In this document: in pieces, positions 1 to 13,818 of the stretch
Numbering within the stretch: the stretch's first letter is position 1
Layout: each line of letters starts with the position of its first letter
Assembly (NCBI GenBank): GCA_040223695.1
Contig: JAVKFU010000019.1
Location: 1-64,000 of the forward strand
Length of the DNA stretch: 64,000 nucleotides
Origin: Deltaproteobacteria bacterium
GTDB taxonomy: Bacteria; Desulfobacterota_D; UBA1144; Nemesobacterales; UBA2774
Reading direction: 5' to 3'
The notes under the pieces: model-generated
What the model was told of the DNA's origin: nothing
The model's input: the letters and a program-made list of their open reading frames with translations, nothing else
Database searches by the model: none
Made by a program: the position numbers and the translations under genes

Positions 1-1
1 A

Positions 2-358
2 TTGGGATATGACCTCGTGTCGTATCATACGGAAGGAAAACCGGTAAGGGGAGACGGTAATAACCTAGTGGTTTATGAAGGCGTAACCTATTTATTCGCG
101 AATGAGGAGAATAAGAACGCATTCGAGAAGAACCCCGAAAAGTATCTTCCCGCCTACGGGGGATGGTGCGCATTCGGAGTCTCCGTAAACAAGAAGTTTG
201 TTGGCGACCCCCAAGTCTGGAAGATCGTTGACGGAAAGCTCTACCTGAATCTGGATAAAAATATTCAGAAAGAATGGAACAAGGATATACCTGGAAACAT
301 AACCAAAGCAGATGCAAACTGGACTGAGATAAAAGACAAGTCCCCTGCCGATTTGTAA
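2..358 (+). CDS. YHS-domain protein, 5' end outside the window
   Basis: The visible 118 residues hold one YHS domain: a GYDLVSYH opening, then YLFANEENKNAFEKNPEKYLP and a YGGWCAFGVS block, the pattern of this roughly 45-residue fold. YHS domains are often linked to metal handling or sit in periplasmic proteins; the specific ligand here is unknown. The codon at position 2 is TTG, but YHS proteins usually carry a signal peptide ahead of the GYD motif, so this is probably an internal codon and the true start lies before the window. A strong hairpin follows the stop. No partner gene is visible upstream. Confidence 0.75.
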   Translation: MGYDLVSYHTEGKPVRGDGNNLVVYEGVTYLFANEENKNAFEKNPEKYLPAYGGWCAFGVSVNKKFVGDPQVWKIVDGKLYLNLDKNIQKEWNKDIPGNITKADANWTEIKDKSPADL

Positions 359-374
359 AATATCTAGAAACATC

Positions 375-410
375 AAACGGGCGCAAATGACAGTGGATCT
401 GCGCCCGTTT
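375..410 (+). terminator. Stem-loop after the YHS gene
   Basis: An 11-bp perfect inverted repeat (AAACGGGCGCA / TGCGCCCGTTT) around a 14-nt loop starts 17 nt after the stop codon. Only three T residues close the right arm and no longer U-run follows, so this may be a weak intrinsic terminator or an mRNA 3'-end stabiliser. Confidence 0.7.
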
Positions 411-514
411 GAAATCATAATCAGCATGCAGGAAGTATTATCCGAATCTATTGGTTTAATAAAATAAATGGTACGATGTATAAAATCGCATTATTGTAAA
501 GACTCAATCTTGGT

Positions 515-2980
515 ATGGTGAATAAAAGTAATAAAGCTAAAGACAAAAGAACATCTGACGACGCTCTAAGAGAAAGTGAGCTACGGCAGTCCTTAATTCT
601 TAAATCAATTCCCGTCGCTATGTATGCAACCAAGGCTTATGGAGACTTTGGCGCCCTCTATATAAGTGAGAACATCAAACATATAACCGGGTTTGAAGCC
701 GATAAATTCATTGCTGACAATAAGTTTTGGCACTCTAGAATACATCCCGAAGATAAGCAACAAGCATTAGACGAGATGCAAGAAGTTCTTTCAAAGGAGA
801 ACTTTGAACTTGAATACAGATGGAAATGCGCTGACGGTACATACCGTTGGTTCCTCGACAAAGCCGTCCTGATAACCGCGGAAAACACCGAGCCTAAGGA
901 AATAGTCGGCACTTGGCTTGACATTACAGATCGAAAAGTCGTCGAGCAATCGCTTAAAACACTGGTAGAAAAGACCGCTTCTGTAACAGGCGTTGATTTT
1001 TTCCGCGTACTTATAAGGAATATGGCATCCTCCCTGGATGTAAAATACGCGTTCGTTTCCAAATGTATTAATTCAAATAAGAAGAAGGTAAGAACGCTTG
1101 CTTTCTGGAGCAAATCCAAATATGGAGAAAATTTTGAATACGACTTAGAAGGAACCCCATGCGAGAAGGTAATTTCGGGTGAATTTTGCTGCTACAACGA
1201 AAAAGTTGCCGAACTCTTCCCCGCTGACGAGGACCTGAAGAAATTTGACGCTCAGGGCTACTTAGGGATCCCGCTTAGTAACAGTAAAGGAAGCGTCATA
1301 GGTCATCTAGCGGTATTTCATGATAAGCCGTTTAAGGAAATCTCGAAACACTTTTCCATATTACAATTATTCGCGATCCGTGCAGGCTCTGAACTGGAGC
1401 GTATGATTGCTGAGGAATCACTCAGGCTCAGTAACAAGCAACTTTCTAAAAAAAGTAAACATGAAGAGATTATAAACTCCGTCACTAAAAGCGTTCACCA
1501 ATCTATAGATATACAAGAAGTATATGAAAACGCGGTTGAGTCGCTGATAAACAACCTGGAAGACGTGGATAAAGTATCCATCTACAACGTTGAGGGGGAC
1601 GAGGCCGTAATCAAAGCATCGAGGGGTACACCTGACTGGTATATTCAAAGGGCGGGGAGAGTCCCCTACCCCAAAGGTTTTACCTGGAAAGTGATCATCG
1701 ACGGTACCCCACGGTATTGCCCTGATACGGAGAAGGACGAGTTCATCGGTCCGTCGGGGAGAGAATTAGGAATAAATAGTTACTTATCTATGCCCATAAA
1801 ATTCGAGAATAAAAACATAGGAGTTATAAACTTAACCTCACTCAAGAAGAATTCTTTTGATAAAGCAGAACTGGAGTTAATGGAAATAGTATCCAATCAA
1901 ATCGAAATAGCAGTCAGTAACGCAAAGCAGGCCGACGACCTTGAAAAAGCATTGAACGAGCTGAACAAGCTAAAGAAGAGACTCGAGTCGGAGAATATAT
2001 ACCTTAAAGAAGAGATAAAAACCGAGCATAACTTTGAAGAAATAATTGGTGAGAGTAAAGTTCTAAAAGAGGTTCTGCGTCAAGTCGAGATGGTTGCAAA
2101 TACTGATTCAACTGTACTAATTAGAGGAGATACAGGAACGGGGAAGGAGCGAATCGCAAGAGCCATCCATAATCTCAGTTCGAGAAAACAAATGACTTTA
2201 ATTAAAGTGAACTGTCCCGCGATTCCTTCCGGTTTAATTGAAAGTGAATTATTCGGGCATGAAAAGGGCGCGTTCACTGGAGCGCTCACTAGGAAAATAG
2301 GGAAATTCGAGCTCGCGGACGGAGGCACTATATTCCTTGATGAGTTGGGGGACCTGCCACTTGATGCGCAGGCCAAACTCCTTAGAGTACTTCAGGAAAG
2401 GGAGTTTGAGCGGGTCGGAAGTAATGAGACACGTAAAGTGGATGTCCGGGTAATAGCCGCGACTAACAGAAACCTGGAGACCGCGGTAAAGGAAGGGAAA
2501 TTTCGTGCGGACCTGTATTACCGTTTAAACGTGTTTCCAATAACTCTTCCGGCGCTCAGTGAACGCAGAGAAGATATTCCCGTTCTTACCATGTACTTCA
2601 CACAAAAATATGCAAATAAAATGGGTAAAGAAATAAAGTCAGTTAGTGAGGAAGATATCGAGAGTTTGAAGAATTATTCCTGGCCGGGAAACATCAGGGA
2701 ATTAGAAAATATAGTTGAAAGGGCAGTCATTGTTTCAACGAATGAAACACTCAATATAGATAAAACCCTTGTTGGATCATTACCTGAACCTACATCAAGG
2801 GAGGATGAATCTTTATCTTTGGAAAGCCTTGAACGTGAGCATATCATAATGGTATTGAATAAATGCAACTGGCAAATTCACGGAGAGAAGGGAGCCGCTC
2901 ACATACTGGGTATAAATCCTAGCACGCTCAGAAGCCGGATGGGTAAATTAGGCATAAAAAAGGAAGTAAAACTACTCTAG
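515..2980 (+). CDS. PAS-GAF-GAF sigma-54-dependent enhancer-binding regulator
   Basis: This is an 821-residue bacterial enhancer-binding protein that should activate sigma-54 RNA polymerase. In order it has a PAS domain (about 20-145, with HPEDK and the DITDRK end), two GAF-like sensor domains (about 150-300 and 320-475), a short coiled coil, an AAA+ domain and a Fis-type helix-turn-helix (about 780-815). Walker A GDTGTGKE is at 538-545, the sigma-54 contact loop GAFTGA is intact at 585-590, and Walker B reads GGTIFLDELGD. There is no receiver domain, so the signal is probably a small molecule or redox cue sensed by PAS/GAF. A near-perfect -24/-12 promoter lies about 145 bp after its stop, ahead of a STAS-ECF-ECF-anti-sigma operon, which is its likely target. 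No clear Shine-Dalgarno precedes the ATG. The ligand is unknown. Confidence 0.93.
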   Translation: MVNKSNKAKDKRTSDDALRESELRQSLILKSIPVAMYATKAYGDFGALYISENIKHITGFEADKFIADNKFWHSRIHPEDKQQALDEMQEVLSKENFELEYRWKCADGTYRWFLDKAVLITAENTEPKEIVGTWLDITDRKVVEQSLKTLVEKTASVTGVDFFRVLIRNMASSLDVKYAFVSKCINSNKKKVRTLAFWSKSKYGENFEYDLEGTPCEKVISGEFCCYNEKVAELFPADEDLKKFDAQGYLGIPLSNSKGSVIGHLAVFHDKPFKEISKHFSILQLFAIRAGSELERMIAEESLRLSNKQLSKKSKHEEIINSVTKSVHQSIDIQEVYENAVESLINNLEDVDKVSIYNVEGDEAVIKASRGTPDWYIQRAGRVPYPKGFTWKVIIDGTPRYCPDTEKDEFIGPSGRELGINSYLSMPIKFENKNIGVINLTSLKKNSFDKAELELMEIVSNQIEIAVSNAKQADDLEKALNELNKLKKRLESENIYLKEEIKTEHNFEEIIGESKVLKEVLRQVEMVANTDSTVLIRGDTGTGKERIARAIHNLSSRKQMTLIKVNCPAIPSGLIESELFGHEKGAFTGALTRKIGKFELADGGTIFLDELGDLPLDAQAKLLRVLQEREFERVGSNETRKVDVRVIAATNRNLETAVKEGKFRADLYYRLNVFPITLPALSERREDIPVLTMYFTQKYANKMGKEIKSVSEEDIESLKNYSWPGNIRELENIVERAVIVSTNETLNIDKTLVGSLPEPTSREDESLSLESLEREHIIMVLNKCNWQIHGEKGAAHILGINPSTLRSRMGKLGIKKEVKLL

Positions 2981-3124
2981 TAAAACCATATAATTATGAA
3001 ATAACGCAATTCCTCGATATGTCGTAAGTATCAGTACGCAGAACTTAATACTAACTTGTAAACCTCATCAACAAAATCCTATGATCCCAGCCACTTAAAG
3101 CAGGATTGCGCCGCTTTACGATAT

Positions 3125-3141
3125 CTGGCACAGCCCTTGCA
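3125..3141 (+). promoter_or_regulatory. Sigma-54 (-24/-12) promoter
   Basis: CTGGCACAGCCCTTGCA matches the sigma-54 consensus TGGCACG-N4-TTGCA at all but one of the strongly conserved positions, and the GG and GC dinucleotides are exactly 12 bp apart. The predicted transcription start is about 3152, some 35-40 nt before the STAS gene. It sits between a sigma-54 activator and two ECF sigma genes. I found no convincing paired enhancer site in the 140 bp upstream. Confidence 0.85.
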
Positions 3142-3188
3142 CATATTAAATTGTAAAAACATTTAAATCACGTGCGAGGTTGCCGAAA

Positions 3189-3479
3189 GTGCTAAGAATC
3201 ACATTAACATATCTGGATTTAGAAACTACAAGATTGAGACTGGACGGAAAATTGGTCGGTACATGTGTATCAACTTTAAAAGATGAATGTTTGATCCATA
3301 AGGATAAAAAAAACAAGACTGTAATATTGGATTTCGCGGGAGTTTCTTATATTGATCCCAATGGAGTAAAAATGCTGGAGAGTATAAATGACGAGAAGTT
3401 GCGGATCGTTAATTGTCCGATGTTTATCGAGAAGCTCCTGGAAAATCTGATATCAGTGAAAAAAGGAGATGTGATATGA
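3189..3479 (+). CDS. Small STAS-like (anti-anti-sigma type) protein
   Basis: This protein of about 96 residues has a STAS-like core: a beta-strand reading TVILDFAGVSYIDPNGVKMLESI, close to the segment of SpoIIAA/RsbV proteins that carries the regulatory serine or threonine, followed by a short C-terminal helix. Here the usual DSSG-type phospho-site reads DPNG, so regulation by Ser/Thr phosphorylation at that spot is doubtful. I place the start at GTG 3189, because the GAGG at 3176-3179 is 9 nt upstream; the in-frame TTG at 3180 would touch it. It is the first gene after the sigma-54 promoter, and its TGA overlaps the next ATG by 4 nt, implying coupled translation. The STAS assignment rests on one motif and is moderate. 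Confidence 0.65.
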   Translation: MLRITLTYLDLETTRLRLDGKLVGTCVSTLKDECLIHKDKKNKTVILDFAGVSYIDPNGVKMLESINDEKLRIVNCPMFIEKLLENLISVKKGDVI

Positions 3480-4207
3480 GTAATGATAGCTTGATCGATC
3501 CTATACAAAATAACCGGCAATTAGCTTACAACTATGACTCGATTAGTAGCGGTGAAGCCTCTATATTCGAATCGTCTGAGAAGGAGTACCCGGATGATAT
3601 TACATTTATAGATTATAAAGAGTTGTTTGATGAGGAACTTGTTACACGCTATCTCGAAAATGAAGATGAAGAGGCGTTTAATGAAATCGTTGATCGCTAT
3701 GGCTGGAAGATTCACAGGCTTGCGTTCAGAATTACGCATGATATGAGAAACGCTGACGACGTTCTTCAGGAGGTCTTTCTCACACTAGTGGAAAAGCTCC
3801 ATACCTTTCGTCAAGAGGCAAGATTCTCCACCTGGCTATATAGAGTTGCTACAACGGTGAGTTTTCTTTATCTCAGGAAAGAAAAAAAATACCAGCAGCA
3901 ATTAAGTCTGGAGAATTTAGAAACATATGATAAAACCGGATATGCGCATGGAGCAGAACTACAAGATTGGAGCTCTATACCGGATGATATCGTAATGAGA
4001 AGAGAGCAGAAGGGAAAAATAGAAAAAGCGATTAGCGAGATGCCTGAAATAAATAGAGTAGTATTTCATCTCAGTGATTTAGAAGGACTTACCAGTGTGG
4101 AAATCGGGGAAATATTAGGGATAAGCCTATCCGCAGTTAAATCCAGGATTCGTAGGGCGAGACTGTTTCTTAGAGATAAATTGTCAGACAATTTGTACAG
4201 GGTATGA
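3476..4207 (+). CDS. ECF sigma factor (first of two)
   Basis: A 243-residue sigma-70 family protein of ECF type. Region 2 (about 55-125) shows EEAFNEIVDRYG, ADDVLQEVFLTLVEKLHTFR and FSTWLYRVATTVSF; region 4 (about 180-235) shows MPEINRVVFHLSDLEGLTSVEIGEILG and SAVKSRIRRARLFL. An acidic N-terminal extension of roughly 50 residues is longer than usual for the class and could be regulatory. The start ATG at 3476 has AAAAGGAG 6 nt upstream and overlaps the STAS stop codon, so output is probably coupled to the STAS protein. It belongs to the sigma-54-driven operon. Which of the two sigmas reads the promoters found downstream cannot be told from sequence. Confidence 0.93.
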   Translation: MSNDSLIDPIQNNRQLAYNYDSISSGEASIFESSEKEYPDDITFIDYKELFDEELVTRYLENEDEEAFNEIVDRYGWKIHRLAFRITHDMRNADDVLQEVFLTLVEKLHTFRQEARFSTWLYRVATTVSFLYLRKEKKYQQQLSLENLETYDKTGYAHGAELQDWSSIPDDIVMRREQKGKIEKAISEMPEINRVVFHLSDLEGLTSVEIGEILGISLSAVKSRIRRARLFLRDKLSDNLYRV

Positions 4208-4277
4208 AATTGATTTGGTCAATTCGAAATTGGGAGGGAATAAAGACGAGATGAACTATGAGAAAGGAGTTGCCACT

Positions 4278-4895
4278 ATGAATCCCGACAGGGCCGAGTC
4301 GCGTTCAGAGCATTCAAGTGAAGAGCGGGACTTGAAATTATTGCTTGCGCAGATTTCTCTGGGCAACGAAGAAGCTATGAGGAAATTTTATAAAAAAACG
4401 GTCAGGCTTGTATATGGAATGTCACACAGGATAATCTTCAACGCCGAAGAAGCTGAAGAAGTAGCGCTTGAGGTATTCATGTATATATGGAAAAACGCGT
4501 CTCAATATGACCCTGAGCTGAGTCAACCGTTAAGCTGGCTTCTGATGATCACAAGGAGCCGCTCGATCGACAAAATTAGAAAAAACGCCAGGACGGTCAG
4601 TATAAACGAGCATATCGATGAAAATATGATAAAGGGTAAAGGCACCCCCGAGGACTCATGCATTGCCGGCGAGAAAAGAATGCTTGTCCGAGGCGCAATA
4701 TCTCAGCTTACCCCTAAACAGAAGGAAGTAATCGAGCTATCATATTATCACCAGTTCAGTCACAGCGAGATAGCGGAAAGAGTCGGAATACCCGTAGGAT
4801 CGGTAAAGAGCACTATCAGAGTTGCAATGGTTAAATTAAAGAATATAATTAAAAATGCGGGAGTGGAGTCGGAACATGTCACAAAAATACACTGA
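4278..4895 (+). CDS. ECF sigma factor (second; SigK/RpoE-like)
   Basis: A 205-residue ECF sigma factor. Region 2 includes AMRKFYKKTVRLVYGMSHRII, AEEVALEVFMYIWKNASQYDP and LSWLLMITRSRSIDKIRK; region 4 includes LTPKQKEVIELSYYHQFSHSEIAERVGIPVGSVKSTIR. The SWLLMITRSRSIDKIR segment is typical of the sigmas paired with RskA- or ChrR-type anti-sigma factors. The frame is open from TTG 4215 and has another ATG at 4251, but ATG 4278 has AAAGGAG 8 nt upstream and is the best start. The gene follows the first ECF gene by about 70 nt and overlaps the anti-sigma gene by 20 nt, so that protein is its natural partner. Confidence 0.92.
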   Translation: MNPDRAESRSEHSSEERDLKLLLAQISLGNEEAMRKFYKKTVRLVYGMSHRIIFNAEEAEEVALEVFMYIWKNASQYDPELSQPLSWLLMITRSRSIDKIRKNARTVSINEHIDENMIKGKGTPEDSCIAGEKRMLVRGAISQLTPKQKEVIELSYYHQFSHSEIAERVGIPVGSVKSTIRVAMVKLKNIIKNAGVESEHVTKIH

Positions 4896-5463
4896 CGAAG
4901 AAATTCAGAATTTAGCTGCTTCCTACGCTCTAGGCGTGTTGAGTGAAGAGGAAAAAGCAGAGTTCGAAGCCCTGCTAAAAGACGAAGTCGCGGCGAACGC
5001 CCATCTTCAATACTTCAAAGATATCGTGAACGACATTTCCTATAACACCGAGCCCTTGAAAGAGCCGGAGGGTTTAGAGAAACGCTTACTCGGTCAAATT
5101 GAAAAAAAAAAGAGAGTGAGTGAGGAACAAAGCGGATTTCTATACGTAAGGGCAGACGAAGGAGAGTGGGCCGAAGTCGTCAAAGGAGTTAAGGTAAAAC
5201 AGCTTTATGAGGACCCTGAACGTAAGTATGCTACAGTGCTTGTAAAAATGGACGCCGGAGCTACTTTTCCCGACCACGTACACACGGAAGCCGAAGAGTG
5301 CTATGTAATAGAAGGTGACTTACACACGGGGGGAAAGGCTTTCAGCAAGGGTGATTATATCAGAGCCGAAGCGCACAGCGTTCACGATAGTATATATTCA
5401 GAAAACGGTTGCCTTCTCCTTGTCCAGTCTTCCGAAGAAAATGAAATGTTGCCCGCCACATAA
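4876..5463 (+). CDS. Cupin anti-sigma factor: RskA-like head, ChrR-type cupin tail
   Basis: A 195-residue soluble protein. The N-terminal 50 residues (LAASYALGVLSEEEKAEFEALL) match the helical sigma-binding head of RskA/ZAS-type anti-sigma factors but lack the HxxxCxxC zinc motif of ChrR. The C-terminal half is a cupin whose H134, H136, E140 and H170 have the same spacing (2, 4 and 30) as the zinc ligands H141, H143, E147 and H177 of Rhodobacter ChrR. There is no membrane segment, so it should act in the cytoplasm. The start ATG 4876 has GGAG 7 nt upstream and lies inside the end of the sigma gene. The known ChrR family senses singlet oxygen and organic peroxides; the signal here is inferred only. 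Last gene of the operon. Confidence 0.88.
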   Translation: MSQKYTDEEIQNLAASYALGVLSEEEKAEFEALLKDEVAANAHLQYFKDIVNDISYNTEPLKEPEGLEKRLLGQIEKKKRVSEEQSGFLYVRADEGEWAEVVKGVKVKQLYEDPERKYATVLVKMDAGATFPDHVHTEAEECYVIEGDLHTGGKAFSKGDYIRAEAHSVHDSIYSENGCLLLVQSSEENEMLPAT

Positions 5464-5535
5464 GTTCCATTTTGTAAACTCGACATAAATAGATTTTGCA
5501 TAGTAATATTTTAACTCCCAGACAGTGGGGCTCCC

Positions 5536-5597
5536 TTTGGTGAAAGTCCTTAATAACCGCCAGGCTCACCTTATATAAATTTCTTTTTTCACCAAAA
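5536..5597. repeat. Widely spaced inverted repeat ahead of the ECF-type promoter
   Basis: TTTGGTGAAA and TTTCACCAAA form a 10-bp inverted repeat with arms about 42 nt apart. It ends just before the GATCCAA element at 5603. The stretch between contains GGTGAAAGTCC and GCCAGGCTCACC, and could fold as the 3' end of the anti-sigma transcript or serve as a protein site. I do not recognise a known riboswitch in it. Confidence 0.4.
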
Positions 5598-5602
5598 GAA
5601 GT

Positions 5603-5627
5603 GATCCAAGGCCGGTATATCCACGTA
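5603..5627 (+). promoter_or_regulatory. Putative ECF sigma promoter (GATCCAA-N14-CGTA)
   Basis: GATCCAA (5603-5609) and CGTA (5624-5627) are separated by 14 nt. The same two blocks with the same gap occur upstream of the fasciclin and DUF4331 genes. Predicted start of transcription is about 5635, giving a leader near 57 nt. Assigned to one of the two ECF sigmas encoded directly upstream. Confidence 0.7.
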
Positions 5628-5691
5628 ATCTAGGGAAAACATATTCATAACCCGGTCGGACATGAATAAAATTTATAAGGAGGCAAGAAAA

Positions 5692-5970
5692 ATGAGAAAG
5701 CTATTAGCAATCGCGGCTTTGAGTCTAGCGCTCGTATTACCGTCTGTATCATTCGCCGACATACATGCTTTTGGTGTAAAAACTCCGGTAGTTAAATCCG
5801 AAGTTAGTAGCCAGGCAAAAGGCGGCAAGGTAGAGAAGGATTTTATCAGTTTCTACATTAGCCCTAAAGGCGAGAGTGTTGAATCGAACTCGAAGGTTTC
5901 CGATAATTCGAGTGAAGACGACAGTTTTACAGTTTTTGGCGTCAGGCTGTCTTCTACCCAAAAATCATAA
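5692..5970 (+). CDS. Small exported protein of unknown function
   Basis: A 92-residue protein that begins with a clear signal peptide (MRKLLAIAALSLALVLPSVSFA, cleavage predicted after FA). The mature part of about 70 residues is polar and Ser/Lys/Glu rich and bracketed by two similar stretches, HAFGVKTP near the start and TVFGVRLSS near the end. ATG 5692 is chosen because AAGGAGG lies 8 nt upstream; an in-frame ATG at 5662 has no such site. I recognise no family. It is the first gene after the ECF operon, has its own putative ECF promoter and is followed by a terminator, so it is probably a highly regulated envelope stress product. Confidence 0.75.
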   Translation: MRKLLAIAALSLALVLPSVSFADIHAFGVKTPVVKSEVSSQAKGGKVEKDFISFYISPKGESVESNSKVSDNSSEDDSFTVFGVRLSSTQKS

Positions 5971-5985
5971 CCCATACCCCCCGGA

Positions 5986-6029
5986 GGGAAGCCGCGCCTC
6001 TTTTGAGAACCGGCTTCCCGCCCCTCTTT
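5986..6029 (+). terminator. Rho-independent terminator
   Basis: A 9-bp stem GGGAAGCCG / CGGCTTCCC (5986-5994 and 6011-6019) with a 16-nt loop is followed by CCCCTCTTT. It ends the single-gene transcript of the small exported protein. Confidence 0.75.
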
Positions 6030-6158
6030 ATAAATATCATAATTAAGAATCCGTTCCCATCTTTTATACGCAAGATATATCCGCCATCAAAAATGCCAAT
6101 GGCAACTTAGCCCTTATTACCCAAATTATTACTCCTTTGGACGATTATTATTTTTAAA

Positions 6159-6183
6159 GATCCAAATTGTAAAAATCAGCGTA
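6159..6183 (+). promoter_or_regulatory. Putative ECF sigma promoter (GATCCAA-N14-CGTA)
   Basis: GATCCAA (6159-6165), then 14 nt, then CGTA (6180-6183), identical in both blocks and spacing to the site at 5603. It would start transcription near 6191, about 27 nt before the fasciclin gene's ATG. Confidence 0.72.
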
Positions 6184-6217
6184 TACATATGTGAAAAAAA
6201 ACAGAGGAGGTGCTTAA

Positions 6218-6787
6218 ATGCACAAGATATTTAAAAAGTTTTTAATGCTGCCTGTAATGGCGGCAGTTTTTACAATAGCCGGATTAACCGCATATGCCGA
6301 CACTACCGTAATGGTAGGCGGCGAGGCGATGTATCCGACAAAGGACATCGTGGACAATGCCGTTAATTCAGCCGATCACACAACACTTGTAGCCGCGGTT
6401 CAGGCTGCGGGATTGGTAGAAACGCTTAAAGGTCCGGGACCGTTCACAGTGTTTGCTCCGACGAATGACGCGTTCGAGAACCTTCCGGACGGAACGGTCG
6501 AGACCCTTCTCAAGCCGGAGAATAAGGACACGCTGACCAAGGTGCTTACCTATCATGTCGTGCCCGGTCGTCTTACGTTCGATCAGCTTGCTGAAAAAAT
6601 TAACGCAAACGACGGAAAGGCCGAGCTGAAAACCGTAAGCGGCGATACGCTGACAGCCTGGATGAACGGTCCTCACAACATCCTTATCAAGGATGAGAAA
6701 GGAAACGTGGCGAGTATATCAACCTACGATGTAATTCAGTCAAACGGAGTTATTCAGGTTGTAGATGCTGTTCTTCTGCCAAACTAA
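6218..6787 (+). CDS. Exported fasciclin (FAS1) domain protein
   Basis: A 189-residue protein with an N-terminal signal peptide ending near TAYADT and one FAS1 domain filling residues about 40-189. Hallmarks are TLVAAVQAAGLVETLKGPGPFTVFAPTNDAFENLP, the YHVVPG motif and the closing NGVIQVVDAVLLPN. FAS1 domains mediate adhesion or ligand binding at the cell surface or in the periplasm. AGGAGG lies upstream of the ATG. It has its own putative ECF promoter and a strong terminator after it. In mycobacteria the fasciclin proteins MPT70/MPT83 are the main targets of SigK with its RskA anti-sigma, which parallels this context. Confidence 0.93.
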   Translation: MHKIFKKFLMLPVMAAVFTIAGLTAYADTTVMVGGEAMYPTKDIVDNAVNSADHTTLVAAVQAAGLVETLKGPGPFTVFAPTNDAFENLPDGTVETLLKPENKDTLTKVLTYHVVPGRLTFDQLAEKINANDGKAELKTVSGDTLTAWMNGPHNILIKDEKGNVASISTYDVIQSNGVIQVVDAVLLPN

Positions 6788-6808
6788 AAAATTGGTTCAT
6801 AAAAAAGG

Positions 6809-6841
6809 GGCGCTTTCGTTCACATCGAAAGCGCCTTCTTT
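6809..6841 (+). terminator. Rho-independent terminator
   Basis: Perfect 10-bp stem GGCGCTTTCG / CGAAAGCGCC with a 7-nt loop and TTCTTT tail, directly after the fasciclin gene. An A-run precedes the stem. Some read-through into msrB is likely because no other promoter is evident before that gene. Confidence 0.9.
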
Positions 6842-6870
6842 AAAAACAAAAAATTTCGAGGAGATAAGTT

Positions 6871-7407
6871 ATGAGCAAGAAAGTAATACAGGTAATAGTA
6901 GTATCGGTCATTTTTAGCGTTGGCTTAATCTATTTTCTTACACAAAATAAGACTTCGACAGGCTCCGTAAAAGTGGTTGAGGCTACTGCTGAAAATATTG
7001 CGGACGATAATCTGCCGGAGGGCGTGATAGGGCTAACGAAAGAAGAATGGAAGAAGAAGCTGACCCCGTCTCAATATAAAGTAATTTGGGAGAAAGGCAC
7101 GGAGAAGGCTTTCTCAGGCGATCTTATCTATAATGAGAAAAAGGGTGTCTATGTTACGGCCGGTTGTAAAGAGCCTGTATTTCATTCCGACAGTAAGTAC
7201 GATTCGGGGACCGGATGGCCAAGTTTTTGGAAGCCCGTTTCAGCAGACGCAGTTATACTAAAACCCGACTACGATCTGGGGTTCGAGCGCACGGAGGTTT
7301 TAAGCAAATGCGGCGAGCATTTAGGGCATGTGTTCAACGATGGGCCTGAGCCGACGGGCCTCAGATATTGCATAAACTCAGCGGCACTCGAGTTTGTAGA
7401 GGAATAA
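6871..7407 (+). CDS. msrB: Membrane-anchored peptide-methionine (R)-S-oxide reductase
   Basis: A 178-residue MsrB with an N-terminal membrane anchor or uncleaved signal (residues about 5-24), so it should repair oxidised methionines in the periplasm. The catalytic domain has [38 protein letters not shown] and catalytic Cys167. The usual two CxxC zinc pairs are half lost: Cys99 and Cys147 remain, but their partners are Thr96 and Leu144, so this is probably a zinc-free form. Cys99 or Cys147 might act as resolving cysteine. It follows the fasciclin terminator by about 30 nt with GAGGAG before the ATG, and probably shares that gene's ECF control. Confidence 0.93.
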
Positions 7408-7514
7408 TCATATCCAATCGCCACAATATTTAGACTGTTAAACTCAAGCCGAAGCACATAAGTGTATCGTTAACCATCCGCAAGATTCCCCTTCTCATCA
7501 TAAATTTAATTTGT

Positions 7515-7542
7515 AAACGGCTGTCCGTCCGGGCAGCCGTTT
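7515..7542 (+). terminator. Stem-loop after msrB
   Basis: AAACGGCTG / CAGCCGTTT, a 9-bp stem with a 10-nt loop, about 110 nt after the msrB stop. The right arm ends in TTT and continues TTAAT-like sequence, so termination may be modest. Confidence 0.65.
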
Positions 7543-7608
7543 AATATATTATCAATTAATACTTTCTAATATAGATAGCATATATTAATTAAATTCGTAC
7601 ATGAATGT

Positions 7609-7633
7609 GCTCCAAGCCTCTTTTGTCTCCGTA
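7609..7633 (+). promoter_or_regulatory. Putative ECF sigma promoter (GCTCCAA-N14-CGTA)
   Basis: GCTCCAA (7609-7615) and CGTA (7630-7633), again exactly 14 nt apart, one base different from the other two sites in the first block. Predicted start of transcription is near 7641, about 30 nt before the DUF4331 gene. Confidence 0.68.
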
Positions 7634-7670
7634 TATATATGCGAATTTAAAATCAAAGGAGGTAAGAATT

Positions 7671-9329
7671 ATGAGCATTTCACGAGTATTAACAGTGTTT
7701 ACATTATTAATAGCGGGTTTGTTTATTTCCGCTATATCCTTTCAGCCGATAGCGGAAGGCGCTAATCACAGAGAGGCGCCAATCACCGCAATAGACGACG
7801 AGGCTGATATTCCGGATGTGTTTGCATTTGTAAGTTACGATCCGGAAGATCCCAACGCTTCCGATAAAGTTACGATGATCGTAACCTACGACCCTTTTCT
7901 GGAGCCGGGAAACGGCCCTACTTATTTCCCGTTCGACCCGGAGATACTTTACGCGATCAGGGTTGATAACGACCATGACGCGGTCGAAGACATAGTCTTT
8001 GAGTTCCGGTTTCAGAACGAAATCAGGCTTCCGAACGTTTTTACAGCATACGTAGGCGCTCTTGGCGGTGTTAACGCGCCGGATAATGCTCCCGACGATC
8101 TGGACGGGAATCCAACAGCCGGGCAGCCTGTGGTGCCGCCTGCGATAACAGCCCTTGACGGTCCCGGCTCTGAGGGACTCGGCCTGAGACAGTCCTACAC
8201 CGTAACAATGGTAAGGGGCAAGGAACGCACGGTTCTTAAAAAAGTAACGGGCGGTCCTCTTTTTAAAGTTCCGACAAACGCCGGACCCAGGACAATGCCT
8301 GATTATCCTTCACTCTTTGAGCAGGGCGTATATGAAGTTGAGGACGGCATTAGCGTTTTTGCCGGAACGGTTGATGACCCTTTCTGGCTTGACCTCGGAG
8401 CCGCGTTTGACTCGTTTAACTTCAGAACACAGGGATTCGTTGTTCAGGGAGTGCTGACAGACGAGCAGGATGCAGACGACTTTAATAATTACGCATCTGA
8501 CGAATTCTCAGGCTATAACGTAAACGCGATAGCTATCGAAGTTCCTATAGAACTTTTGACGAGCGACGGGGAAAAGCACGCTGCATCCGAACCTGAATCC
8601 ACAATAGGCATGTGGGGAACAAGCTCCAGACCGACGAGGAAATTTTTCAGAGGTCCGGGAGAAGCACCCCAGCTCTCAAAGAAGTTCACTCAGATTCAGA
8701 GAATGGCCAACCCTTTAATCAATGAGCTTATTATAGGGATCGGTTTTAAAGATGAATTCAGCATGTCTCAGCCTGAAAATGATTCAATCTTCCAGGACTT
8801 CTTTCTCGATCCGGTGATTGCCCGTGTATTAAACTCCGTATATGAGGCGTTATTCGGCCCTAATATTCTGCCTATACCCGATGTTCCGAGGCTCGATCTT
8901 ATTCCATTGGTTCAATATGCTCCGCCAATAGCGCCCGAAGGAACGTCTGCGGGACCAATCGCTGACCTGTTGAGATTAAACACTGGCGTTCCCCCGACAC
9001 CGCCCGACCAGCAGAGCAGGCTGGGCTTTCTCACCGTACTCGACGAAGATGAGACCAACGACGACCCTGCAGGATTCCCTAACGGGCGTCGTGTGGTTGA
9101 CGATGTTATTGACATAGTATCTCGCGCTGCGGTAGGTGTGCTGAATCCCGACTTCAACACCTTCCCGCATAACAGAATTGGCGACGGGGTTAATGTTAAT
9201 GATATTCAACCGTACAGAACTTCATTTCCTTACCTGAATTATCCACACGACGGACGGAACAGCCGTCACGTCGATCCGGGTGAGTTCGGATGTACGGGCA
9301 CCGATGATGGTGTATGCCCTGTAGATTGA
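7671..9329 (+). CDS. Exported DUF4331 protein
   Basis: A 552-residue exported protein with a signal peptide (about residues 1-29, ending near AEGANHRE) and a DUF4331 domain over nearly all of the rest. The diagnostic opening ANHREAPITAIDDEADIPDVFAFVS is present, with NALxDPFW-like and RTxFPYL-type motifs later (DDPFWLDLG, RTSFPYLNYPHDG). The function of the family is unknown. AAAGGAGG precedes ATG 7671; the upstream in-frame codon at 7605 overlaps the putative promoter and is rejected as start. A hairpin terminator follows, then a TPR protein gene. DUF4331 genes often travel with a TPR partner, as here. Confidence 0.92.
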   Translation: MSISRVLTVFTLLIAGLFISAISFQPIAEGANHREAPITAIDDEADIPDVFAFVSYDPEDPNASDKVTMIVTYDPFLEPGNGPTYFPFDPEILYAIRVDNDHDAVEDIVFEFRFQNEIRLPNVFTAYVGALGGVNAPDNAPDDLDGNPTAGQPVVPPAITALDGPGSEGLGLRQSYTVTMVRGKERTVLKKVTGGPLFKVPTNAGPRTMPDYPSLFEQGVYEVEDGISVFAGTVDDPFWLDLGAAFDSFNFRTQGFVVQGVLTDEQDADDFNNYASDEFSGYNVNAIAIEVPIELLTSDGEKHAASEPESTIGMWGTSSRPTRKFFRGPGEAPQLSKKFTQIQRMANPLINELIIGIGFKDEFSMSQPENDSIFQDFFLDPVIARVLNSVYEALFGPNILPIPDVPRLDLIPLVQYAPPIAPEGTSAGPIADLLRLNTGVPPTPPDQQSRLGFLTVLDEDETNDDPAGFPNGRRVVDDVIDIVSRAAVGVLNPDFNTFPHNRIGDGVNVNDIQPYRTSFPYLNYPHDGRNSRHVDPGEFGCTGTDDGVCPVD

Positions 9330-9349
9330 CAATTCAAATCATGGCGAAG

Positions 9350-9370
9350 GGAGGGTACGAACCCTCCTTT
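9350..9370 (+). terminator. Short hairpin terminator after the DUF4331 gene
   Basis: GGAGGGT / ACCCTCC with a 4-nt ACGA loop followed by TTT. It lies between the DUF4331 and TPR genes and may reduce downstream expression rather than end it, since no separate promoter is obvious for the TPR gene. Confidence 0.75.
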
Positions 9371-9414
9371 GCCTGATTCTTTTAAGCGGCAGAATAATAA
9401 ACAGGAGGTTAGAA

Positions 9415-10719
9415 ATGGTAAGGGCGTTCACATTTTTGCTTTGGTTCTTTATAGCAGTCCCATTCACTACTAATTATTCCCACGCGCACGAAGGCGGACA
9501 TTCCCTTGAGGCCGTGAATCAGAAAGTCAGAACGAGTCCCGCGGACGCCAAGATTGAGTTCTACAAAGAAAAAATTAAACAAAACCCGGATGATTATTAC
9601 AACTATGTGAAGCTCGGAGAGGTATATATCCAAAAAGGCAGGGAGGTCGGCCGGATAGCTCCTTACAACGAGGCTGAAGAAGCGCTCAATAAAGCGCTAG
9701 AGCTCTATCCCGAGGCTTACGCCTCATACATATATTTGGGGCAGATAAGCTCCTACAAGCACGACTTCCATAGAACGATTGATCACGCGAAAAAAGCAAT
9801 AGAGTTAAGACCCGAAAAGAGCACGCCGTACGGTGTTCTGGGCGACGCCTATCTGGAGCTCGGAATGTATGAGGGTGCGGATAGGGCTTACGAAATAATG
9901 TCCAGACTGGACCCCGGCTTTTACTCATTAAGCCGTATCGCTCAGATAAAAGAACTGAACGGAGACAGAGAAGGGGCAATCAGGGCTATGAAAAAATCCA
10001 TCGAGCTCGCCCGGAGGCAAAACTTGCCCGAAGAAAATCTAGCCTGGTCCAAAGTCATGCTTGGCTCCATGTATTTAAACACTGGGGAGCTCACAACTGC
10101 CGAGGAATATTACAAGGAAGCCCTTCTGATTTACAAAGACTACTATCTCGCGCTCGAGCACCTTGCCGAGGTAAATGCCATAAGAGACAATTTCGATAGG
10201 GCCGCCGAACTCTATGAAGAAACACTCACGATGAACCCGAAACCTCAATTTTATATCGCCCTTGGAAATATCTATGAAAATCTGGGCGACCAAGAAAGAG
10301 CCGACAGCCTGTACACGAAGGCCGAGAAAAGATATGAGGAGATTATTCACGACGGCATAAAAGGGCATTCAAGAGAGCTCGCCCTCTTCTACGCAGATAA
10401 TAATAAAAATCTGGATCACGCATTGGAGCTTTCGTTGCACGACTCTGAAAATACTGAAGATATTTATGCCTATGACACTCTGGCCTGGGTCTATTACAAG
10501 CTCGGCGAGCTCAACAAGGCTGAAGAAGCTATAAACAAGTCGTTAAGGCTAGGTACCGAGGACGCCCTTCTCTACTACCACGCAGGAATGATTTACTACA
10601 AACTGGGGAATATGGAGGAGGCAAAGAAATACTTACAGCTTGTCCTGGTGACGAATCCGAATTTCGATAAGAATAAGACGGGCGAGGTAAAAGCGGTGCT
10701 CGCGGAAGTGAACGAATAG
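9415..10719 (+). CDS. Exported tetratricopeptide-repeat protein
   Basis: A 434-residue protein with a signal peptide (to about SHAHEGGH, leaving a His-rich mature N-terminus) and about eight or nine TPR-like helical repeats, for example EEALNKALELYPEAYASYIYLGQI, GAIRAMKKSIELARRQ, LALEHLAEVNAIRDNFDRAAELYEETLTM and LLYYHAGMIYYKLGNMEEAKKYLQLVL. Such proteins are periplasmic or outer-membrane scaffolds. AGGAGG lies 7 nt before the ATG. Placed 85 bp after the DUF4331 gene, it is probably co-expressed with it from the ECF-type promoter at 7609. The partner it binds is not known. Confidence 0.9.
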   Translation: MVRAFTFLLWFFIAVPFTTNYSHAHEGGHSLEAVNQKVRTSPADAKIEFYKEKIKQNPDDYYNYVKLGEVYIQKGREVGRIAPYNEAEEALNKALELYPEAYASYIYLGQISSYKHDFHRTIDHAKKAIELRPEKSTPYGVLGDAYLELGMYEGADRAYEIMSRLDPGFYSLSRIAQIKELNGDREGAIRAMKKSIELARRQNLPEENLAWSKVMLGSMYLNTGELTTAEEYYKEALLIYKDYYLALEHLAEVNAIRDNFDRAAELYEETLTMNPKPQFYIALGNIYENLGDQERADSLYTKAEKRYEEIIHDGIKGHSRELALFYADNNKNLDHALELSLHDSENTEDIYAYDTLAWVYYKLGELNKAEEAINKSLRLGTEDALLYYHAGMIYYKLGNMEEAKKYLQLVLVTNPNFDKNKTGEVKAVLAEVNE

Positions 10720-10924
10720 ATCTCTTAATTTTATTGCCGGAGATTCATCGACTGATAAAACCGGTATACGGAAAGGCTACGAAAGCGCCCGTGAAGCTAA
10801 TCGTGTTATTTTTTTGTCAGCCCATATAATGTTTCGGCATCCCGTCCTTTTGTAACTGGAGTATACGGGTGCTTCTGTATTATGTCACGCAAAAAACTCA
10901 CCGGTCAGGGTTTGACAGATCATA

Positions 10925-11398
10925 TCAGTTCATCTGTTCTGAAAAATCCGCAATAACGGGTTTAACAAGCCTCTCCAAATCCTGATAGCTCATCTTTATC
11001 GCGTCGGTATGGGTCCCGGCATTAAAAACGATTTCTTCATCTTCCGACAAGGCTTTTGCCACATAAATGGGCAGATCGTACAAATTCCCAAAAGGCGGCA
11101 TAGCTCCTACCTCACAGTCAGGGAACATTTTTCCAAACTCTTCTTCCTTGGCAAGCTCAACATGTTTTGCAGACATTACGTCTTTAAGGGCTTCTAAGTT
11201 TATTTTTCGGGAAGCCGGTAAGACCGCCATTGCATAGCCTTCATCGGCCTTCACAATCACCGTTTTAGCCAACTCCTTACCCGGTACGTGCACCAAAGCA
11301 GCTATTTCCTGCGCGGTATAAGCCGGAGAATGAGAAATTACCTTGTACTTTATTCCGTTATCATCCAGATAATCTTTCAAGCTTTTAAGTACGCTCAT
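10925..11398 (-). CDS. YbaK/EbsC-family aminoacyl-tRNA deacylase
   Basis: A 157-residue YbaK-fold protein, full length for the family. It keeps the conserved lysine context KELAKTVIVKADEGYAMAVLPASRKINLEALK and the GAMPPFGNLYDLPIYVAK loop. Family members hydrolyse mischarged Cys-, Ala- or Ser-tRNAs (ProXp/YbaK type); the exact substrate cannot be set from sequence. Single gene on the minus strand. A GGGGGGAATAAA stretch precedes the ATG, and a TATAAT-like element lies in the AT-rich region just upstream with the inverted repeat at 11448-11464. Confidence 0.9.
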   Translation of the reverse strand: MSVLKSLKDYLDDNGIKYKVISHSPAYTAQEIAALVHVPGKELAKTVIVKADEGYAMAVLPASRKINLEALKDVMSAKHVELAKEEEFGKMFPDCEVGAMPPFGNLYDLPIYVAKALSEDEEIVFNAGTHTDAIKMSYQDLERLVKPVIADFSEQMN

Positions 11399-11717
11399 TT
11401 TATTCCCCCCTTAATCCTCTTCCTTATATAAATATTATATCAAATACTGTTCCGGAGTGGAACACAAAATTATAGATGGAATTTAGCATCAATTTCCCGA
11501 TTGGATGTCAAATATCGTAAAATCCTACGGAATTCGGAATATATTAAAGCGTATGGATGAACCGCTGTTCATGAAAAACTGCGTGTCTGACCTGACTGTG
11601 ACCCTTAAGCCATTATTGCTCCGGGTTTGGTAGTTTCGATCTTTCTAGGTGCTTTCTTACCGGCGCCAGGAATAAATCCCTGTATGCAGGTTTGCATGAA
11701 TCTACAATCACAAAGTC
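11399..11717. other. Gene-free stretch between ybaK-like gene and nnrS
   Basis: Divergent intergenic DNA of more than 300 bp. The left part holds the minus-strand promoter region and a TGTTCC-GGAGT-GGAACA inverted repeat at 11448-11464, a possible regulator site for the deacylase gene. The middle contains only short unsupported frames. I see no RNA gene or repeat in the rest. Confidence 0.5.
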
Positions 11718-11765
11718 TTTACAAAACGAGATACAAGGGTAAAATATGAGTGAGCGCTCACTCAT
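11718..11765 (+). promoter_or_regulatory. nnrS promoter with a perfect 20-bp palindromic operator
   Basis: A sigma-70-like promoter (TTTACA at 11718, 16-nt gap, TAAAAT at 11740-11745) is followed at once by ATGAGTGAGC / GCTCACTCAT, a perfect palindrome at 11746-11765. The palindrome covers the expected transcription start, so bound protein should block the promoter. Its form TGAGTGA-N4-TCACTCA resembles operators of TetR-family fatty-acid regulators (TGAATGA-N4-TCATTCA for Bacillus FadR). The regulator is unknown. Confidence 0.75.
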
Positions 11766-11781
11766 ACATGCGGGTATTGCA

Positions 11782-12978
11782 ATGAAACGAATAACCGGTA
11801 AGAACGACCAAATTTTTTCGCTGTTTGAATCCGCCTATAGACCGTTTTTTATCCTGGCGACAATATCATCATTATTTTTTATGACAATCTGGACGGCTTT
11901 CTATACTTTTCGACTCAACCTGAATTTTGAAAATATATCCCCGGCTATGTGGCACGCCCACGAAATGTTATTCGGCTATACAATGACAGTAATAGCGGGC
12001 TTTATATTAACCGTTGAGAAGTACTGGTTAGGGGTGGTTATAAACAAAAAATCGGTACTCATTTCACTGGTGGTTCTCTGGATACTTGCGAGAGTATCGA
12101 TTTCGCTGACTTTTATTGCCGGTTTCCCCTGGAAAATCGGGGCGGTAGTGGACTGCCTGTTCCTTATTATTCTTACTATAAGAGTAGCGTATCCGATAAT
12201 AGGCGCTAAAGCCTGGAGCAAAACGGTCCCGTCCGCTCACCTGGCCATCATAACTGCAGGCAATATTATATTTTATCTGGGTCTGTTCGGGATATTATCA
12301 AACGGCCAATATTTGGGTGTGTACTCGGCCCTTTTCGCAATCATATCGTTCATTCTAATTATGGGGCGGAGGATGATACCAATATTTATCCGGAACGGAC
12401 TAAAGTTCAAATTCGACCCCAGGAACTGGCGTGCTATCGATATGCTGGGCATTGTGTTCTTTGTTCTGTTTTTCGTTACGGAGTTATTTTCCCCAAACGG
12501 CAAAATCGCTTCAGTAATTTCGGGAATACTGGTTGTAATTTTTTCGATCAGATTATACGGATGGTATTCGGGCAAGATATGGAGCAAGCCTATGCTCTGG
12601 GTCCTTTTTGTCGCTTACACCTGGATTGTGATCGGGTTCGGACTTAAATTCCTCTCCCTCTATTTTAATATCCCTGGCTTTCTATCCGTTCACAGTTTTA
12701 CCTACGGGGGTATAGGCGTTATGACTATCGGATTCATGGCCCGTGTAACGCTGGGACATACGGGAAGAGATGTATTTGACCCTCCGAAAATAGTGTTCTG
12801 GATTTTTGCCGCTTTACTTGCCGGAGCAATCGTAAGAGTATTCTTTCCGCTGATTGACAGAGGCCATTATCTGATTTGGATCGGCGTCTCGCAATTATTA
12901 TGGATATTATCGTTCCTTATTTTCGCGATTGTATTTTTCCCGATGCTCTTTACACCCGCATTAGAGAAAAAGGCATGA
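11782..12978 (+). CDS. nnrS: NnrS family heme/copper-type membrane protein
   Basis: A 398-residue multi-pass inner-membrane protein with about 11-12 hydrophobic segments. It shows family hallmarks FESAYRPFFILATISS, MWHAHEMLFGYTMTVIAGFILT, MGRRMIPIFIRNG and HSFTYGGIGVMTIGFMARVTLGHTGR, with many conserved histidines. NnrS proteins are linked to nitric oxide resistance and denitrification. The open frame reaches ATG 11746, but that codon is inside the palindromic operator at the predicted transcription start, so ATG 11782 is the more likely start and also fits the short N-terminus of relatives. No nitrite or nitric oxide reductase genes are visible nearby. Confidence 0.9.
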   Translation: MKRITGKNDQIFSLFESAYRPFFILATISSLFFMTIWTAFYTFRLNLNFENISPAMWHAHEMLFGYTMTVIAGFILTVEKYWLGVVINKKSVLISLVVLWILARVSISLTFIAGFPWKIGAVVDCLFLIILTIRVAYPIIGAKAWSKTVPSAHLAIITAGNIIFYLGLFGILSNGQYLGVYSALFAIISFILIMGRRMIPIFIRNGLKFKFDPRNWRAIDMLGIVFFVLFFVTELFSPNGKIASVISGILVVIFSIRLYGWYSGKIWSKPMLWVLFVAYTWIVIGFGLKFLSLYFNIPGFLSVHSFTYGGIGVMTIGFMARVTLGHTGRDVFDPPKIVFWIFAALLAGAIVRVFFPLIDRGHYLIWIGVSQLLWILSFLIFAIVFFPMLFTPALEKKA

Positions 12979-13205
12979 TTATTATAAAAAACGCAAGCAA
13001 TTACATTCAAAGTACACCTCTACGCAGCGATTTGTATTTCGGGATTCAGGCATTGAAAGATATTCTCCTAAGCCCTACGTAGTAGATTCTAATCCCGCCT
13101 CGCCCGCAATTAGCGTTTCATATTACAAGTGATTTATTTAGAGCTTCCCAGGATGTGCATTTGATTCAACATATGGGATTTATCCGAAGGATTCTGCCAT
13201 AAGGC

Positions 13206-13802
13206 TCATGCCCCTTTCCTCCACTCCAGCAGCCGGTTATTGACGGGCATCTCGTGGTCTTTGACGAGTTTTAATCCCTCTCTTTCAGCAAGGGAATTCA
13301 CCCACTCGAAATCACGGATAGCGCTTTCGGGGTTCTGACTCCGGAGCCAGGCGTCGAACTTTTTATTGCTCTCGCTCGTATATTTGCCGTCGTAGTTAAA
13401 CGGCCCGTATACGCAGAGCGTCCCGCCGCCCTCAAGTCTCAATCCTATGCCCTCAAGCATACACTTTATCCGGGGCTTCCCCATAATGTGGAGCGTGTTC
13501 GCCGAAAAAACCGCGTCCGCCTCCTCTACAGGCCAGAGGGCGTCGGCAACATTAAGGACAACGGGCTCTTTTATGTTGGGGAGATTCGCCTCATCGAACC
13601 AAAGCTTCATACCGGAAATATTCTCGGCCAAATCCGAGGGCTGCCATGTGAGGTGTGGGAGATTGGCGGCAAAGTGGACCGCGTGCTGTCCCGTGCCGCT
13701 TCCGATTTCAAGCACGAGAGAGGAGTCCCGAAAGGCTTCCTTTAAAACAGCGAGTATCGGGCCCTTATTATTTTCACATGATTGACTGAAAGGCTTTTCC
13801 AT
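13206..13802 (-). CDS. DUF938 SAM-dependent methyltransferase-like protein
   Basis: A 198-residue class I methyltransferase fold of the DUF938 type. It has the FSQSCENNKGPILAVLKEAF start, motif I LVLEIGSGTGQHAVHFA, the WQPSD acidic loop, ADAVFSANTLHIM and VYGPFNYDGKYTSESN. The substrate is unknown. It starts 16 nt after the bipA stop on the same strand and probably shares its transcript. Family members are usually about 200 residues, so the gene looks complete. Confidence 0.88.
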   Translation of the reverse strand: MEKPFSQSCENNKGPILAVLKEAFRDSSLVLEIGSGTGQHAVHFAANLPHLTWQPSDLAENISGMKLWFDEANLPNIKEPVVLNVADALWPVEEADAVFSANTLHIMGKPRIKCMLEGIGLRLEGGGTLCVYGPFNYDGKYTSESNKKFDAWLRSQNPESAIRDFEWVNSLAEREGLKLVKDHEMPVNNRLLEWRKGA

Positions 13803-13818
13803 TATTGTAACGAGGGCT

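Follow-up and report, generated by a model that had tools for sequence, protein, structure and literature searches.

A predicted soluble anti-sigma factor with a zinc-free head and a ChrR-type cupin, encoded beside a SigK-like ECF sigma factor

Two described designs and a protein that shares features of both

The anti-sigma factors that come closest to the protein considered here are ChrR and RskA. In ChrR of R. sphaeroides, a soluble zinc anti-sigma factor of the ECF11 type (2q1z/2z2s), a head is joined to one cupin, whose ligands are given as H141, H143, E147 and H177 (PMC6852236) and to which the sensing of singlet oxygen has already been assigned (PMC2877774), the part of the head zinc in sensing being called ‘under debate’ in one account (PMC6432622). 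RskA of M. tuberculosis (4nqw) has a zinc-free class I head, a membrane helix and an RskA_C domain; its group, AS19-1, has the published consensus HTLAGAYALDAL / LDDERAAFERHL, and the same source puts the zinc-free share of soluble anti-sigma factors at about 28%, against an older quoted figure of 8% (PMC7406223), so that such proteins are no rarity. Mycobacterial SigK is reported to control MPB70, the fold of which resembles FAS1 domains (PMC10540498). A pair from R. capsulatus, RpoE/ChrR (RCAP_rcc00699/00698), is described as induced by singlet oxygen and as nearer to SigK/RskA (34%/25%) than to RpoE/ChrR of R. sphaeroides (24%/13%) (PMC7074977).

The protein that we describe takes features from each. 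It is encoded on the forward strand at 4876..5463 of the 64-kb stretch of DNA that was analysed (the window), in a reading frame running from an ATG at 4876 to a stop that ends at 5463, and its start overlaps by 20 bases the end of the gene for its cognate SigK-like ECF sigma factor (4278..4895, +), the likely start of which is the ATG at 4278 after AAAGGAG. Its 195 residues comprise a zinc-free class I head, with predicted helices within residues 7-84, and a single ChrR-type cupin (89-184). As in R. sphaeroides ChrR, a head and one cupin with four ligands at the same spacing are united in a soluble, ECF-paired protein, and the published promoters of ChrR-type pairs are of the same type as the promoter-like sites at this locus; unlike in ChrR, the head is zinc-free, the sigma is nearer to SigK, and the score falls under the cut-off of the ChrR family. 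As in M. tuberculosis RskA, a zinc-free class I head goes with a SigK-like partner, and a fasciclin gene is among the linked genes; unlike RskA, the protein lacks a membrane helix and RskA_C and has a cupin instead. Several of these features had been read from the letters in a preliminary description, and on checking, its coordinates and cupin residues (H134, H136, E140 and H170) proved exact, with a 2-4-30 spacing identical to that of H141/H143/E147/H177 in ChrR (PMC6852236); the HxxxCxxC motif is absent as it had said, the head having no cysteine and a single histidine, H43, and the only cysteines of the protein lying at 142 and 179, and so is a membrane span, the top 19-residue Kyte-Doolittle mean being 0.27. 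That description did not cover the promoter-like sites, the conservation of neighbouring genes or the co-located RskA genes, which are discussed below.

The Pfam family Cupin_7, ‘ChrR Cupin-like domain’, matches residues 89-184 with an E-value of 5.2e-23. The pattern HxHx3Ex29H occurs once in the 46,568 residues of the open frames of the window and recurs at 17 of 20 other cupin-bearing loci, namely in all seven other orthologs and in 10 of 13 more distant proteins, whose carriers of the pattern include two-cupin proteins without an anti-sigma head. Judged by this distribution, the 2-4-30 spacing is a mark of the Cupin_7 family and not of ChrR in particular; as proof of ChrR descent it was rejected because of the 10 distant loci that share it, and it is good evidence for a putatively working Cupin_7 site in the anti-sigma factor. 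Two-cupin proteins with no anti-sigma head were seen in the same phylum at L022, L023, L024, L025, L065 and L066.

Orthologs of the anti-sigma factor are present in eight of 57 genomes of the phylum, the window's own included (E 1e-8 or better). The seven others are 47-66% identical to the window protein; H134, H136, E140, H170, C142 and C179 are invariant in all eight, and the HxxxCxxC head motif occurs in none of the eight. On the ChrR family TIGR02451 the window protein scores 35.7 bits, below the cut-off of 124.5, and no protein in the 57 genomes scores above it. Of the NCBI families, NF051881 matches with the best E-value; named for a cadmium/peroxide/UV response, it covers residues 16-183 at 41 bits, far under its cut-off of 300. 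RskA_C gives no match to the window protein at E up to 1. With the whole model as query, Foldseek returns SigE-ChrR (2q1z) first (E 3.4e-11, TM 0.45), and the structural neighbours, in a list that mostly covers the cupin, include KdgF, acetylacetone dioxygenases and DMSP lyases; at a pLDDT of 65.5 the full-length model is too weak for claims about the metal geometry of the cupin. Among 66 stretches of viral contigs, no relative was confirmed.

Lacking the head zinc of ChrR on the one hand and the membrane part and RskA_C of RskA on the other, the protein is filed here under neither, as a class I anti-sigma factor with a cupin as its putative sensor, and its mode of action is probably that of ChrR. 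Occurrence in other phyla was sampled through plasmid records and one profile scan of genome contigs (1 locus). Among the plasmid records, 27 matched the window protein, one of them over 80% or more of the query; a protein from Nostoc used as query drew 51 matches, none but itself reaching that coverage. A two-cupin protein of Gemmatirosa, encoded beside an ECF sigma gene, was rejected as an instance of the same design, there being no anti-sigma family match in front of its cupins. In the literature searched we found no paper joining ChrR or an ECF sigma factor with a cupin and RskA, nor one joining DUF4331 with a sigma factor; either may have been described elsewhere.

The head domain and the partner sigma factor

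Is the head that of an RskA, or that of a ChrR-line protein that has lost its zinc site? By prediction it consists of four helices (mean pLDDT 80), and it is modelled as a class I anti-sigma domain, its gene being paired with that of an ECF sigma factor. The likeness to RskA that the preliminary description had seen stands in one part and falls short in another. Foldseek ranks RskA 4nqw_B first (E 0.063), followed by ChrR, RslA, RsiW, DdvA and MucA, with ECF-sigma anti-sigma domains throughout ranks 1-17 and no match at 0.001, and the heads of RskA_C proteins of the phylum are homologous to it; but RskA_N reaches only 17.3 bits on the window head against a Pfam cut-off of 27, and VIA-align puts the zinc anti-sigma factor RslA (Z 7.6, 55 residues, 2.7 A) above RskA (Z 6.1, 70 residues, 4.4 A), MucA (6.0), RsiW (6.0) and ChrR (Z 4.9, 73 residues, 4.8 A), scores that fall where helical bundles may match by arrangement alone. 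The zinc-finger family zf-HC2, at 14.9 bits, is also under its Pfam cut-off.

Comparisons at the level of sequence connect the head with RskA proteins of the same phylum. The four-helix model was built from 15 aligned heads, eight of cupin proteins and seven of RskA; the A1 profile matches RskA 4nqw_B weakly at 4-74 (E 0.27), and the window head, with LAASYALGVL / LSEEEKAEFEALL, resembles the consensus of the RskA group AS19-1, HTLAGAYALDAL / LDDERAAFERHL. Within single loci, blastp between head and RskA gives 2e-8 (G007), 2e-7 (G029) and 7e-4 (window genome); in the whole-genome search an RskA of G007 (C46) is related to the head at E 6.6e-7, and the RskA proteins of the window genome at only 0.018 and 0.031. 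The RskA_C domain is present in seven RskA proteins with homologous heads, and a hydrophobic span in all three that were tested. A tree of 21 heads splits those of the cupin and RskA proteins from three zinc heads at 90/92, on an unstarred branch, in a tree that carries long-branch warnings and leaves out ChrR itself. Three RskA heads (L020 5130-5993, L021 5545-6402 and L105 3937-4794) bear an H-x4-C-x2-C variant of the zinc motif, so that zinc-like and zinc-free heads are mixed in the phylum; the same mixing within groups has been published for class I heads in general (PMC7406223).

Among solved structures, the best match of the partner sigma is SigK 4nqw (E 2.7e-23, 85.8 bits), with SigL at 60.9 bits and R. 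sphaeroides SigE (2q1z) at 60.4 bits, and a 29-residue stretch of its region 4 has 12 identities to SigE versus 7 to SigK. A related sigma gene lies upstream of the anti-sigma gene at all seven relative loci. When 18 sigmas are placed in a tree, one clade (98/97) unites all eight cupin-paired sigmas of the phylum with four of its five RskA-paired ones, the fifth falling outside; inside this clade, the second, RskA-adjacent sigma of G007 groups with the six f1 cupin-paired sigmas (96/91). Whether or not they are paired with RskA, the 14 sigmas compared all lack the SigK cysteines Cys133/183, and a switch at these residues was accordingly rejected as the explanation of a difference. Also rejected was the upstream ECF sigma at 3413-4207 as the partner, in view of an identity of only 22-28% to the sigmas found at the relative loci. 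Immediately upstream of the pair, a STAS-domain gene and this other ECF sigma gene occupy 3180-4207 of the window.

That the protein belongs to the ChrR line and lost its head zinc site, the head having no origin of its own in RskA, we regard as rather unlikely. Such a loss would agree with the mixing of zinc and zinc-free class I heads within groups (PMC7406223), with ChrR as the best whole-protein fold and with the coverage of residues 16-183 by NF051881, and it was given more weight on account of a plasmid-encoded protein of Nostoc linckia (BAY80379.1, annotated ‘anti-ECFsigma factor, ChrR’; 28% identical to the window protein), whose head is zf-HC2-like yet without the motif. What speaks against it is a partner sigma nearer to SigK than to SigE, the rank of RskA above ChrR in the Foldseek list of the head, the separation from the three zinc heads at 90/92 (unstarred, with long branches and without ChrR in the tree), the RskA genes at three of the loci and the 57 genomes without a protein above the ChrR cut-off.

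Like the window protein, the Nostoc protein has a head lacking HxxxCxxC and a single 2-4-30 cupin, and its gene follows that of an ECF sigma; a zinc-less head joined to a cupin is thus not confined to this phylum. Its head scores 22.5 bits on zf-HC2 (cut-off 22.2) versus 13.4 on RskA_N, which, as far as profile scores go, fits a loss of the zinc site there, and blastp aligns it with an RskA head at 32% over 65 residues. Two strict promoter-like sites (GATCCA-N15-CGTAW) flank the pair on the plasmid, against a mean of 0.01 in 500 shuffles, and lie before P450 and ferritin-like genes (L042 4072-4097 and 5685-5710). Unlike at the window locus, the neighbours thus include a ferritin-like gene and a P450, and a fasciclin gene is absent among the five neighbours scanned.

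Promoter-like sites, downstream genes and a possible signal

Five genes follow the pair on the forward strand. The first encodes a small protein (5662..5970) with no Pfam family above cut-off and with a homolog at two of the seven relative loci (G007 and G004); it is followed by a fasciclin-domain protein (6218..6787; Pfam Fasciclin, E 7.9e-32), present at the same locus in five relatives at 73-88% identity, an MsrB (SelR; 6871..7407), present at three of the seven loci, a DUF4331 protein (7671..9329; Pfam E 1.2e-97), also at three, and a TPR protein (9415..10719), which is found at two and also follows DUF4331 in G029 and G017. Since each has an N-terminal hydrophobic stretch, all five proteins are taken as exported. 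The cluster is incomplete at the seven relative loci, some of whose contigs end early, and neither cluster genes nor sites were found in the 10.4 and 14.0 kb fetched from G017 and G019. A hairpin at 6804-6842 between fasciclin and msrB (-21 kcal/mol, z -7.53) is perhaps a terminator or attenuator.

Three promoter-like sites stand on the forward strand ahead of these genes: TGATCC-N16-CGTAA at 5602..5628, upstream of the small exported gene; AGATCC-N16-CGTAT at 6158..6184, upstream of the fasciclin gene; and TGCTCC-N16-CGTAT at 7608..7634, upstream of the DUF4331 gene, whose start, given this last site, is probably the ATG at 7671. TGATCCn16CGTA is the reported consensus of the ChrR-type pair of P. 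syringae (PMC5507510), and the sites described for RpoE2-ChrR of Shewanella fit the same consensus and spacing (PMC4336711); measured against it, one window site is exact and two have a single -35 mismatch, all three being sequence motifs only. The motif was first noticed by reading intergenic regions and then searched, so that the pattern is post hoc. In the 146,295 bp of the window and the seven relative loci, GMTCCR-N15-CGTAW has 17 matches, against a mean of 0.47 over 30 shuffles, with -35 forms TGATCC (8), AGATCC (7) and TGCTCC (2) and a constant 16 bases to CGTA. Fourteen of the 17 lie immediately upstream of sigma, small, fasciclin or DUF4331 genes, and the other three just 3′ of the anti-sigma gene (G001, G002 and G003), where no homolog of the small gene was found. 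Within the 64 kb of the window only the three matches occur, even with a spacer of 13 to 16. The GATCCR form has five matches in the window genome (G000) versus one for a reversed control, two of them before the small gene and fasciclin and three within open frames, and it is present in 32 of the 57 genomes of the phylum.

Away from the cupin loci, a relaxed site (AATCC or CATCC, N16-17) precedes DUF4331 in G017, G019, G028 and G029, the four usable genes of this comparison, in which the DUF4331 gene of G002 (L130) lacked a usable upstream stretch; second matches to the relaxed pattern in two of the stretches make single matches weigh less. The relaxed site also precedes a close fasciclin homolog of G029 and none of seven distant fasciclin paralogs. 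DUF4331 itself is present in nine of the 57 genomes, seven of them among the eight with the anti-sigma factor (Fisher p 1e-6, uncorrected for kinship). In G028 and G029 the DUF4331 site is kept without the cupin protein, and the output alone therefore implies no cupin sensing. Directly before the site at 5602 lies a 15-nt inverted repeat (5531-5601, 87% complementary); it was rejected as an RNA element because its fold is no better than that of shuffles (z -0.23), and no RNA family reached the gathering threshold in positions 1-14000 of the window.

From the arrangement of sites and genes, the small protein, the fasciclin protein and DUF4331 are likely targets of the sigma. MsrB is a possible target, its share in the regulon being made uncertain by the strong hairpin ahead of it.

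We consider it reasonably probable that the protein is a soluble anti-sigma factor whose zinc-free RskA-type head holds the SigK-like sigma while its metal-bearing cupin senses an oxidant, freeing the sigma to act on envelope genes. As homology and gene pairing suggest, the four-helix head would hold, in the cytoplasm, the sigma from the overlapping upstream gene, and the cupin would bind a metal through H134, H136, E140 and H170 and act as the sensor. An oxidant may then damage or rearrange the cupin site, upon which the anti-sigma factor would release the sigma or be degraded, and the freed sigma would transcribe from promoters of the TGATCC-N16-CGTA type. The output would comprise the small exported protein, the exported fasciclin, perhaps with MsrB, and DUF4331 with the TPR protein, and would serve envelope protection and repair.

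As the signal, our best guess by analogy is singlet oxygen or an organic hydroperoxide. The guess draws on the R. sphaeroides fasciclin RSP_1409, a reported member of the RpoE regulon that is induced by singlet oxygen, as Msr enzymes are (PMC7074977), on an Azospirillum fasciclin said to be under RpoE-ChrR control (PMC10949492), and on SigK and MPB70. Sensing by the cupin alone, as the preliminary description had proposed, is plausible from the sequence, and because sensing in ChrR has already been placed in the cupin, it would be a smaller departure than that description implied. A natural ChrR-like protein without head zinc separates the part of the head zinc from sensing by the cupin; for ChrR it is debated whether singlet oxygen is sensed by the one, the other or both (PMC6432622). 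As a sign of a light-linked source of oxidant, rhodopsin was rejected, for it occurs in six of the 57 genomes and in none of the eight that carry the anti-sigma factor. Those six, with bacterial rhodopsin genes (L139 and L140), all belong to the small-genome family f8.

Could the same anti-sigma factor, with the same regulon, answer to something other than an oxidant? We find it doubtful that metal status, or a small ligand such as a metal-bound metabolite, is what the cupin responds to, a possibility that its structural neighbours KdgF, the acetylacetone dioxygenases and the DMSP lyases bring to mind, as does the name of NF051881 (cadmium/peroxide/UV response), though at 41 of 300 bits; the clustered MsrB and a promoter of the RpoE-ChrR type point to oxidative damage instead.

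RskA genes at the same loci

Returning to the reading of an oxidant-sensing cupin on an RskA-type head, the related loci offer a view of how such a protein may have arisen. In G007, G017 and G019 a full rskA gene lies, divergently, beside the sigma of the sigma/cupin pair. G007 further has a second SigK-like sigma (L015 8127-8717), 47% identical to that of the window, between rskA and the cupin-paired sigma. In G029, which has no cupin ortholog, rskA is divergent from a SigK-like sigma that is followed by DUF4331 and then TPR. The stretches retrieved from G001-G004 yielded no rskA gene. The presence of both controllers at three loci, and of DUF4331-TPR behind an RskA-paired sigma in G029, suggests an exchange of sensors, and the simplest reading of these gene orders is that RskA was at first joined by a cupin anti-sigma factor whose head is of RskA type and which may later have taken over. 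The cupin would thereby have replaced RskA's membrane part, with the sigma lineage and much of the output kept; this direction is one that we infer, the trees being unrooted. Only tentatively do we add that the exchange may have been recent, passing a SigK-like sigma and its envelope output from membrane RskA to a soluble zinc-free cupin anti-sigma factor in which the cupin metal alone would detect singlet oxygen or peroxides. The comparison of loci would offer a concrete case of one sigma lineage, with part of its output, exchanging an envelope sensor for a cytoplasmic one.

It is unlikely that the main user of the promoter-like sites is a SigK-like paralog of the sigma, itself controlled by membrane RskA, with the cupin pair serving only for fine-tuning or as a decoy: other sigma/RskA pairs in G000 and G007, the DUF4331 gene adjoining a sigma/RskA pair in G029 and a relaxed site between sigma and RskA in L106 would allow it, but of the five strict sites in G000 three fall inside open frames and the remaining two precede the small gene and the fasciclin gene, and in G007 a strict site precedes the cupin-paired sigma itself. 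The RskA proteins of the window genome are encoded on another contig, where they adjoin other SigK-like sigmas.
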